In this document: positions 26,551 through 58,790 of the stretch, in pieces | Layout: each line of letters begins with the position of its first letter | Numbering within the stretch: the stretch's first letter is position 1 | NCBI GenBank assembly: GCA_003279605.1 | Contig: QCHF01000002.1 | Location: 447,586-511,585, forward strand | DNA: 64,000 nt | Reading direction: 5' to 3' | DNA from: SAR86 cluster bacterium AG-390-O18 | GTDB taxonomy: Bacteria; Pseudomonadota; Gammaproteobacteria; Magnimaribacterales; AG-339-G14 | Made by a program: the position numbers and the translations under genes | Notes under the pieces: model-generated | Told to the model about the DNA's origin: nothing | The model's input: the letters and a program-made list of their open reading frames with translations, nothing else | Databases searched by the model: none

Positions 26551-26578
26551 TTATTCTTAATTTGGAATATGTTCTAAT
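26551..26578 (+). promoter_or_regulatory. Candidate rpsB promoter with extended -10
   Basis: TCTAAT (26573-26578) preceded by TGT forms an extended -10 element (TGnTATAAT type). A weak -35 candidate TTATTC lies 16 bases upstream. The transcript would start near 26585 and have a leader of about 135 bases before the rpsB ATG. Confidence 0.5.
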
Positions 26579-26610
26579 TCGCTTTCTCATTAATGTAGAG
26601 AAAAAAATAC

Positions 26611-26700
26611 GCACTCGTTTGGATAGAGTATTAGGGTGCTGTCATTGCTCAATGTCAGTTTAATACTTAGCCTCGAGGAGGAATAACCCAGCCTAAAGGC
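26611..26700 (+). promoter_or_regulatory. Structured rpsB leader, possible S2 autoregulatory element
   Basis: The 175-base spacer before rpsB is the longest non-coding stretch apart from tmRNA. GCACTC (26611-26616) pairs with GGGTGC (26634-26639). The enclosed AGTATTA (26627-26633) is an exact complement of TAATACT (26661-26667) outside it, allowing a pseudoknot. Between them CTGTCATT and AATGTCAG (26639-26658) form a hairpin around GCTC, and AGCC-TAAA-GGCT follows near 26690-26701. In E. coli S2 represses rpsB-tsf through its leader; the pairing here is seen, the function inferred. Confidence 0.5.
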
Positions 26701-26720
26701 TATAAAAAAAGGAGCAATTT

Positions 26721-27521
26721 ATGGATATCTCCATAGAACAAATGTTAAAAGCCGGAGTTCATTTCGGACATCAAACCAGATTTTGGAATCCTAAAATGGA
26801 AAAATACATCTTTGGAGACAGAAATAAAGTTCATATTATCAATTTAGAAAAAACTTTAGAGTGTCTAAACCCTGCTATTGAGTTTTGTAAAAAGCTCTCT
26901 GCCTCTAATAATCGAATTCTTTTTGTGGGAACTAAAAGAGCTGCCAGAAGAGTCATAAAAGAAGAAGCTGAGAGATGCAATATGCCTTTCATTAACTATA
27001 GATGGCTTGGTGGGATGCTCACAAACTACAAAACTGTAAGATCTTCAATCAGAAGGCTTGAAATTCTAAATACTCAGGAAGAAGAGGGTAAATTTGCGGA
27101 TTTAACAAAGAAAGAGGTTTTAGGTATCAGAAGAGAAATGGAAAAGCTCGATCGTTCAATTGGTGGAATAAAGAATATCGGAGGTCTCCCAGAAGCTCTT
27201 TTTGTAGTTGATGTAGAAAATGAAAAAATAGCAATAGCTGAAGCAAAAAAAATGGGAATTCCCATTATAGGAATAGTTGATACTAATTCAAACCCAGATA
27301 ATGTAGATTTTATTATTCCAGGTAATGATGATGCTATTAGGTCAATTTCTTTAATTTCTAGAATAATTTCAAACGCATGCCTTGAAGGAGCTGAAATGTC
27401 AGGATCAACCAGAACCTCTAAAGATGGTCCTGTAGTTGTTAAAAAATCTTCTCAAGAAGAAGAAGTTCAAACCAAAAGTAGCAAGCAGGAAGAAACAAAA
27501 GAATCAACTGAGGATAAATAA
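26721..27521 (+). CDS. rpsB: 30S ribosomal protein S2
   Basis: S2 joins the 30S subunit late and is needed with S1 for initiation. The 266 residues include the diagnostic [19 protein letters not shown] near the start, [15 protein letters not shown] near 92 and [25 protein letters not shown] near 190. A 30-residue acidic and lysine-rich tail extends past the conserved domain. GGAG lies six bases before the ATG. tsf starts directly after the stop. Confidence 0.98.
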
Positions 27522-28376
27522 ATGACAATAAAAGCACAAGACGTAAAAGAGCTTAGGGAGAAAACAGGCTTGGGCATGATGGAATGTAAAAAAGCTCTTG
27601 AACAAGCAAATGGAAATTTAGAGGAAGCAATTAAAAATTTACGAAAAAGCAGTGCTTTGAAAGCTGAAAAAAAAGCTTCAAGAACTGCTGTTGAGGGGAT
27701 AATTACTTCTAAAACATCCAACAAAGAAATTACTTTTCTAGAAGTTAATTGCGAAACTGATTTTGTTGCTAAAGATGAAAATTTTATCAATTTCTGTGAA
27801 GAAACTTTAAAAGTTGCTGTTGATACTTCTTCGAAAGAAAATTTATTGGATGAAGTTTCTCAAGCTATGGAAAAGCAAAGAATGTCTTTGGTTCAGAAAA
27901 TCGGCGAAAACATAATTATCAGAAAGGTAAAAAAAATTACTGGAGAAGTTTTAGAATCATATATTCATTCAAATAAAAAAATAGCTGCCGGTGTTTCTTT
28001 AGAGCAAGGTAATCCAGAGATTGCTAAAGAATTGGCTATGCATATAGCTGCAACTAATCCTATAGTTTTGTCTCCAGAAGATTTGGATGAATCCTATATA
28101 AATTCTGAAAGAGAAATATTTAAATCACAGGTCGAAAAGGAAGATAAGCCTGAAGAAATCAAAGAAAAAATGATTCAGGGTAAATTAAACAAACAGCTTG
28201 CTGATGTGAGCTTATTGAAACAACCTTTTGTCAAAGATCCTTCTAAGAGTGTTGAAGCATTTCTTTCTGATTCGAATGCAAAAATATCTTCGTTCGTAAG
28301 AATTGAAGTTGGTGAAGGTATAGAGGTTGAAAAGAAGGATTTTGCAGAGGAAGTTCAGTCTCAACTTGAAGGATAA
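27522..28376 (+). CDS. tsf: Elongation factor Ts
   Basis: EF-Ts exchanges GDP on EF-Tu. The 284 residues start with the UBA-like domain (VKELREKTGLGMMECKKALEQANGNLEEAI) and include the conserved TDFVAKDENF contact motif near residue 80. Length matches E. coli (283). It directly follows rpsB. The usual next gene pyrH is absent; frr follows after 25 bases. Confidence 0.98.
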   Translation: MTIKAQDVKELREKTGLGMMECKKALEQANGNLEEAIKNLRKSSALKAEKKASRTAVEGIITSKTSNKEITFLEVNCETDFVAKDENFINFCEETLKVAVDTSSKENLLDEVSQAMEKQRMSLVQKIGENIIIRKVKKITGEVLESYIHSNKKIAAGVSLEQGNPEIAKELAMHIAATNPIVLSPEDLDESYINSEREIFKSQVEKEDKPEEIKEKMIQGKLNKQLADVSLLKQPFVKDPSKSVEAFLSDSNAKISSFVRIEVGEGIEVEKKDFAEEVQSQLEG

Positions 28377-28401
28377 TAATCTTTTTTTATAGATAATTAG
28401 A

Positions 28402-47485: not shown

Positions 47486-47923
47486 GTAACGCTTAATTAC
47501 CTCACCATCTTTATTGACTAAAAATTTAGTGAAATTCCATTTTATTGCCTTGCTTCCAAGTAAGCCTTTCTTTTCCGATTTGAGATAATCATACAAAGGA
47601 TCAGCATTTTTTCCATTGACGTCAATTTTCCCCATGACAGGGAAACTGGTTTGAAAATTTATTGAACAAAATTCTTGGATTTCTTCATTACTTCCAGGCT
47701 CTTGATTGCCAAATTGATTACAAGGAAAAGCTAAAACAGAAAAATCTTTTTCTGAGTATTTTTTTTGTAGCTCTTCTAAACCATCATATTGCGGAGTAAA
47801 TCCACATTTGCTGGCTGTATTAACAATTAGCAGGGTTTTTCCTTTATATTTTTCCAATGATACTGAATTATTTGCATTATCATTCACTGAAAAGTCATAT
47901 AATGTTTGGCTCATAAAATTCAT
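47432..47923 (-). CDS. Glutathione peroxidase (cysteine type)
   Basis: A thiol peroxidase of the GPx family (E. coli BtuE is one). The 163 residues have the peroxidatic cysteine in NTASKCGFTPQYDGLEEL near residue 39, the FPCNQFGNQEPG block near 67 and WNFTKFLVNKDG near 130 with the conserved Trp and Asn. The active site is encoded by an ordinary TGC/TGT cysteine, not selenocysteine. No signal peptide. It may start at either of two nearby ATGs. Physiological reductant is probably thioredoxin, as for most bacterial members. Confidence 0.93.
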   Translation of the reverse strand: MNFMSQTLYDFSVNDNANNSVSLEKYKGKTLLIVNTASKCGFTPQYDGLEELQKKYSEKDFSVLAFPCNQFGNQEPGSNEEIQEFCSINFQTSFPVMGKIDVNGKNADPLYDYLKSEKKGLLGSKAIKWNFTKFLVNKDGEVIKRYSPNTEPKDIAQDIENLL

Positions 47924-47969
47924 TTTATCAGAAAAAATATAAATACTTTAATCAACGGGGAGAGCAATC

Positions 47970-57763: not shown

Positions 57764-58790
57764 TCTTATTTTTGGTGATACTTTAGACAATCTTTTTACA
57801 CGGTATGCCTGGCGCTTTCTAATTCTTACTGTTGGGGTATTTTTTTTACTGGATTTGGTTCTCTCGTTTCTGAATGAATTTGAAGATTTAAGTGAATTTT
57901 ATTCATTTGATAAGATTCTACTCTTTTTGGCATTTACGTCAGTTGATGCAGTTTTTGATATTTTTCCTTTAAGCGCAATTGTTTCGACAATTATGTGTAT
58001 GGGTGCAATTTCAGATTCAGGAGAATTGATAGCAGCAAGGGTATCTGGAAAAAAATTATCCAGAATTGTCTTTGCGGTTCTAAAGCCAGTAATTTTTGGA
58101 ATCACAATAATGCTCGTTTCATGGCAATTTTTTATTCCTAATCTTCAAGAGGCTGCCAATAAATTGAAATTCGAACCCGCATCTAATGTCTCTGAACAAA
58201 AAGAACAGTGGGTGTTTAAAAACGATCGGTTTTCAAAAGTAACAGATCGGGGTGTCAGCAAAGAAGTAAAAATTTACGATCTCGATGAAAAAGGAAACGT
58301 CGATAGCATTGTCATCGCTGAAGATTTTGAAATTACTGAAAACGAGTGGGTTATTAAAGAGGTAAGTGATTACAAGGAAAATATTGGTAAGTCAGATTTT
58401 GTCTGGGAAAATGCCCCAAAGTTGGCTATGAATTATTCCATGAAAGGTCTAAAACACATGTCCTTGACGGATAACTATTATTACTGGCAATCCATCAACG
58501 AAGCCGCTGACCGAAACAAAGTGGGTTACCAATTTTGGAAGAAAATGCTTGAACCCATTTCTTTGATCTGTCTTATTATTTTTGCTTTAGCCATTTCTCT
58601 GAGAGCCGTGGGTAGGAACAAAAGTGTCGATCGCTTCGTCTTAGGAATTTTAATTGCCTTTGGCTTTAACCTTTTAATTAAAATCTTCGGCAATATTTCT
58701 TTGATTCTCGGTTGGAGTGCTTTTTGGGGAATTCTGCTGTCTTCTTTGCTTCTGCTTTACTTCGGCATAAGAATCATTCGACGCGTTTAG
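57750..58790 (+). CDS. lptG: LPS export permease LptG
   Basis: Partner of LptF. I take the ATG at 57750 (346 residues, MSSYSLIFGDTLDNLFTRY) rather than an in-frame TTG ten codons upstream. The pattern repeats that of LptF: FPLSAIVSTIMCMGAISDSGELIAARVSG near 75, a periplasmic domain (about 130-255) and C-terminal membrane segments. The lptFG order and the divergent pepA neighbour agree with other Gammaproteobacteria. Its 3' end overlaps the converging RDD gene by four bases. Confidence 0.94.
   Translation: MSSYSLIFGDTLDNLFTRYAWRFLILTVGVFFLLDLVLSFLNEFEDLSEFYSFDKILLFLAFTSVDAVFDIFPLSAIVSTIMCMGAISDSGELIAARVSGKKLSRIVFAVLKPVIFGITIMLVSWQFFIPNLQEAANKLKFEPASNVSEQKEQWVFKNDRFSKVTDRGVSKEVKIYDLDEKGNVDSIVIAEDFEITENEWVIKEVSDYKENIGKSDFVWENAPKLAMNYSMKGLKHMSLTDNYYYWQSINEAADRNKVGYQFWKKMLEPISLICLIIFALAISLRAVGRNKSVDRFVLGILIAFGFNLLIKIFGNISLILGWSAFWGILLSSLLLLYFGIRIIRRV

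Follow-up and report, generated by a model that had tools for sequence, protein, structure and literature searches.

A probable autogenous S2 operator in the rpsB leader of a SAR86 genome, with a lineage-specific match between a hairpin loop and the Shine-Dalgarno sequence

Positions 26585-26720 of the 64-kb stretch of DNA analyzed here (the window) are the 5′ leader of rpsB, the gene of ribosomal protein uS2, in a SAR86 genome, and as a whole this element is best explained as an operator through which S2 controls the rpsB-tsf mRNA autogenously, a reading to which we assign a probability of about 90%. The closest named homologues of the uS2 protein encoded here are records of the SAR86 cluster. 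The core of the leader is a ribosomal protein leader of an already known kind, and it belongs almost certainly to the gammaproteobacterial S2/rpsB leader class (Rfam t44; the "rpsB motif" of PMC2704228). In E. coli, uS2 together with bS1 represses rpsB-tsf, according to the rpsB passages of PMC10931766.

The genes around the leader run dnaK-dnaJ-dapB-rpsB-tsf-frr-uppS-cdsA-dxr, as called from ORFs, with all names except rpsB read from the protein sequences. By a rough ORF call the dapB-rpsB spacer measures 175 nt, with a median of 2 nt for the spacers in the window; a preliminary description made from the sequence alone had called it the longest free leader there, which was roughly right as to its being long but not as to rank, since the spacer comes sixth. 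The two longest spacers of the same rough call are 58106-58786 (681 nt) and 47486-47969 (484 nt), and one of the spacers longer than the rpsB leader contains tmRNA. In Gammaproteobacteria pyrH often sits between tsf and frr; here frr follows tsf directly (window positions 28377-28401) with no pyrH between them. Upstream of the leader, a possible extended −10 element was seen by eye (Table 1). Because this string was absent from the list of the consensus scan, we infer a promoter there only provisionally; if it is one, transcription would possibly start near 26585.

Table 1. Features of the rpsB leader and the genes that follow it (window coordinates).
Feature	Position	Strand	Basis
Possible extended −10 promoter TATGTTCTAAT	26568..26578	+	By eye; similar strings at the same place in relatives
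5′-terminal hairpin TCTC...GAGA (P0)	26585..26601	+	In the MFE fold; likely transcript 5′ end
Conserved CAC at the operator's 5′ edge	26612..26614	+	31/32 f1 (one CGC), 29/29 f2; also E. coli
P1 outer, 5′ strand CUCG	26614..26617	+	Paired with 26674-26677 in 99.2% of cells; double changes in 2/4 pairs
P1 middle GG, paired to CC 26671-26672	26621..26622	+	76.6% of cells paired; double changes in both pairs (GC/AU/UA)
P1 inner, 5′ strand AGUAUUA (arm of the preliminary description)	26627..26633	+	96.9% of cells paired; double changes in 4/7 pairs
Pseudoknot 5′ arm, the GGGU of an invariant GGGUGC	26634..26637	+	Pairs with ACCC in 32/32 f1; longer in f3
Hairpin P3, apical loop GCUC 26647-26650	26640..26657	+	5/7 pairs changed on both sides
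P1 inner, 3′ strand UAAUACU (arm of the preliminary description)	26661..26667	+	f1 covariation
P1 outer, 3′ strand CGAG	26674..26677	+	f1 covariation
Pseudoknot 3′ arm ACCC, 3′ of P1	26686..26689	+	f1 pairing; same architecture as in the motif section of PMC2704228
Hairpin P4 AGCC-UAAA-GGCU, between pseudoknot and Shine-Dalgarno (SD) sequence	26690..26701	+	92.9% of cells paired; 2/4 pairs changed on both sides
SD GGAGC, whose GAGC (26712-26715) complements the P3 loop	26711..26715	+	61/61 f1+f2
rpsB, ribosomal protein uS2	26721..27521	+	ORF and homologues
tsf, elongation factor Ts	27522..28376	+	Abuts rpsB directly; ORF, name read from protein

Leaders were compared across families f1 to f4, f1 being the SAR86 family of the window. 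Every f1 genome in which uS2 was matched was used (35 genomes, with 32 distinct leaders after three identical ones were dropped), as was every such f2 genome (31, with 29 distinct leaders after two identical ones were dropped). For f3, 23 leaders were fetched and 21 counted, L048 and L174 being excluded for lack of the CAC anchor though both carry GGGTGC and AACCC; seven leaders were fetched for f4. L084 was excluded from the comparison as no start was obtained. The set of 49 other gammaproteobacterial leaders left out L125, L131 and L132 (f3-like leaders), L127, L130, L133 and L134 (SAR86), and L136 (labelled Clostridiales).

Class membership was approached with two models. A permissive search of 301 bases matched t44 (RF00127) over its full length to 26592-26687 with 30.4 bits (E 8.8e-5), short of the gathering cut-off of 44 bits, and at the Rfam gathering threshold tmRNA was the only match in the window. 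Under stricter filters t44 exceeded its cut-off in 0/61 genomes of the order; matches at E ≤ 0.001 were obtained in 5/61, the window's own genome not being among the five. Model R1, built from the 32 f1 leaders and hence from SAR86 leaders only, detected the E. coli rpsB leader with 27.1 bits (E 1.8e-4) as well as the leaders of several other gammaproteobacteria (of 27 loci tested, 13 were matched at E ≤ 1), and homology with the E. coli leader was found both ways, from R1 to E. coli and from t44 to SAR86. In a search of 202 genomes of the order, R1 had matches in 41, comprising 35/40 in f1, its training family, and 6 in f2; the five f1 genomes without an R1 match also had no uS2 match. A weak second R1 match in the window (56163-56043, minus strand; 18.8 bits, E 0.03) was dropped, as it looks like coding sequence by eye.

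Both Rfam and the E. coli annotation label t44 a small RNA, which would make the element a trans-acting RNA of that type and not a leader. We consider this extremely improbable: the R1 match lies directly 5′ of rpsB in all 35 matched f1 genomes, and the E. coli work, in the pertinent passages of PMC10931766, regards t44 as the rpsB 5′UTR. The E. coli operator, annotated tff/T44, is located ahead of rpsB, and PMC2659441 lists t44 ahead of Shewanella rpsB. Features of the rpsB motif that were found in the SAR86 leader are a position directly ahead of rpsB, a long covarying P1 capped by P3, and a pseudoknot between GGGU and the 3′ extension. The earlier proposal was right in that the rpsB leader is structured, is of the S2 type and includes a pseudoknot. 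No SAR86 rpsB leader was found in the literature searched, most subscription journals lying outside its coverage.

The fold was derived from the f1 alignment: of the 889 cells that make up the outer, middle and inner parts of P1, P3, P4 and GGGU/ACCC, 91.9% formed standard pairs. Changes on both sides were counted in 107 cells, compared with 40.5 in shuffles (0/500 as high) and 5-29 in slid controls; one shuffle measure ran in the opposite direction, with 28 further pair types observed versus 33.7 in shuffles. Among the 32 f1 leaders, a C-G pair of the lower P1 is switched to U-A in 11, a G-C pair of the upper P1 to A-U in 10, and an A-U pair at the top of P1 to U-A or C-G in 18, and three pair types were seen in P3. 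Other hairpin-like sequences were noticed by eye at the place of P0 in relatives. A conserved SD-like GAGG/GAAG run follows P1 (window 26676-26681) with no start codon at the usual distance, and could possibly serve as a standby or decoy site.

The preliminary description had built an H-type pseudoknot from four strings, GCACTC (26611-26616), AGTATTA, GGGTGC (26634-26639) and TAATACT, all of which are present where it placed them. An exact 7-nt complement occurred in 158/400 dinucleotide shuffles of 26585-26720, and a 6 × 7 H-type crossing in 100/400, so that the pattern from the single sequence is not beyond chance and the comparison of relatives decides. Single-sequence folding combined with string matching was accordingly rejected as evidence, the MFE z-score of 26585-26735 being −1.79 and chance matches being common in shuffles. 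In the relatives the AGTATTA/TAATACT helix proved real and constitutes the upper part of P1 (pairing and double changes over 32 leaders in Table 1); because both arms vary with compensation, it passed the test that had been set for it, a search for uncompensated change in either arm. The GCACTC/GGGTGC helix fared differently. Its outer pair is broken without compensation in 21/32 leaders, none of its pairs changed on both sides, and it competes with the covarying lower P1 and with the published pseudoknot. Moreover, CAC is followed in f2 by A or G and never by U or C, and therefore the pair with G is lost there. The C-to-U change of the last C of GCACTC in 11/32 leaders is matched by G to A in its lower P1 partner, and the CTC of this string, which pairs with CGAG as lower P1, therefore belongs to P1. 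Although five of the six GCACTC/GGGTGC pairs form in 32/32 leaders, and CAC and GGUGC are widely conserved, we regard it as very unlikely that the originally proposed crossing of the two helices is the functional fold. As both sides hardly vary, a short core pairing of CAC with GUG may still form. The claim of a pseudoknot itself stood, with a different partner: GGGU fits ACCC and not GCACTC.

The GGGU/ACCC pairing is intact in all 32 f1 leaders without any variation or covariation, and pairs that never vary can, taken alone, neither support nor refute the pseudoknot. One position further out, 18/21 f3 leaders have a standard pair (GC 12, GT 3, TA 1, AT 1, TG 1). Only 12/29 f2 leaders have a standard first pair (GC 6, AT 3, TA 2, GT 1), leaving GGU/ACC. 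In the pseudoknot described in the motif section of PMC2704228, J2-3 pairs with the 3′ extension that follows P1. The case for GGGU/ACCC therefore rests on its invariance, the f3 extension and the published motif.

In this fold the long interrupted P1 (26614-26677) bears P3 and leaves GGGU exposed; with the matching ACCC just 3′ of P1, GGGU makes the pseudoknot, after which come P4 and then the SD site. By analogy with the E. coli system, surplus uS2, aided by bS1, would bind the fold and block rpsB translation, and this repression would also lower tsf. As a lineage-specific proposal, the P3 loop GCUC would in addition pair with GAGC of the SD, through which the folded operator could occlude the ribosome-binding site.

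This last step derives from a sequence match restricted to part of the relatives. Between GGTGC and the descending P1 strand, the P3 loop reads GCTC in 56 and GCTT in 5 of the 61 distinct f1 and f2 leaders, all of which have GAGC within 20 nt 5′ of the start codon. GAGC is absent from all 21 f3 leaders, which have neither the loop nor the SD element (0/21), and of the 49 other gammaproteobacterial leaders six have GAGC, none has GCTC, and none combines GCTC/GCTT with GAGC. The occurrence in 61/61 f1 and f2 leaders versus 0/21 and 0/49 suggests a lineage-specific link between operator and ribosome-binding site, with the limit that these are counts of sequences, which may reflect one ancestral event. 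The P3 stem covaries whereas its loop stays fixed, and the sequence GAGC is the same whether it begins 1, 3 or 4 nt downstream of the first base of GGA (33, 27 and 1 leaders). The energies of duplexes between the P3 and SD regions gave z-scores against shuffles of −1.80 in f1 and −2.98 in f2, and were not better than shuffles in f3 (+0.30) and the other gammaproteobacteria (+0.64). Over the 61 leaders, the loop-SD core had no double change, its sole variation being the GCUU in five, and the pair flanking it did not covary (32/61 versus 32.4 shuffled). Ensemble folding gave a mixed picture of the pairing, and a four-base loop, we infer, is tight for a kissing contact. The leader contains just two exact complements of 7 nt, and one of them, ATTGCTC/GAGCAAT (26644-26650/26712-26718), would extend the loop-SD pairing; this longer helix is not kept in relatives, as the flanking pair lacks covariation. 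As a control of SD context, GGAG was found for 9/51 window ORFs of at least 150 aa and was followed by C in two, numbers too small to serve. Overall, a contact of the P3 loop GCUC with GAGC of the SD is predicted tentatively, at somewhat less than even odds.

The leader may instead work as in E. coli, with uS2 binding the core and the SD outside the structure; the conservation of GCUC would then reflect a protein contact, and that of GGAGC ribosome binding alone. We put the chance of this at about even. It agrees with the absence of covariation between loop and SD, and with the statement in the E. coli passages of PMC10931766 that the ribosome-binding site lies outside the operator, where the mechanistic details are called unclear. 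It leaves unexplained the C after GGAG, which the anti-SD does not account for (own 16S end GATCACCTCC), and it is further opposed by the retention of GAGC at three different offsets and by f3, which has neither GCUC/GCUU loop nor GAGC. The lineage-specific match of operator loop and SD would make the way in which S2 binding blocks initiation directly testable.

GCUC and GAGC also pair with each other at the beginning of a 16S helix (GCUCGU/ACGAGC in the Rfam SSU structure) and are present in this genome's own 16S too. The likeness spans only four pairs and is a lead, not a test. We take this helix, which belongs to the uS2 site, to be helix 35 (E. coli 1068-1073/1102-1107); its GCUC/GAGC strings are identical to those of the P3 loop and the SD. 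The P3 loop and SD might accordingly rebuild helix 35, uS2 recognizing the mRNA by mimicry and clamping the ribosome-binding site shut, which we think improbable; if true, it would supply the step called unclear for E. coli in a 2024 review. For enterobacteria, in-cell probing cited in PMC10931766 indicates that the uS2 sites on 16S and on rpsB mRNA share a common architecture.

In the other families the arrangement differs. Neither R1 nor t44 matched the f4 leaders (L049-L054, L056; 0/7), and from these seven the S2 operator seems to have been lost in this SAR86 family. By eye, rpsB closely follows a coding sequence in the seven f4 leaders, overlapping it as ATGA in some. In f3 (L164-L167 and others), AACCCC, the pseudoknot arm, lies next to or almost next to the SD GGAG with no P4 between, possibly another way to couple operator and ribosome-binding site. 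The operator has persisted in an AT-rich and streamlined lineage of the ocean, which suggests that feedback by S2 has been kept there.

Compared with t44 (RF00127; E. coli rpsB 5′UTR, tff), the SAR86 leader shares the full-length match to model positions 1-95, the reciprocal detection, and conserved CAC, GGGUGC, GGAGG and AACC; it differs in scoring below the cut-off, in being AT-rich, and in an outer P1 shorter than that of E. coli. With the rpsB motif of Meyer et al. 2009, as given in the motif section of PMC2704228, it has in common the long P1, a short or absent P2, P3, the position directly ahead of rpsB, and the pseudoknot in which J2-3 pairs with the 3′ extension beyond P1. Two elements of f1 and f2 go unmentioned in that section, P4 ahead of the SD and the fixed GCUC loop of P3 matching GAGC of the SD, and the comparison of leader sequences suggests that these constitute a lineage-specific extension, P4 plus the loop-SD match, on a leader of known kind.
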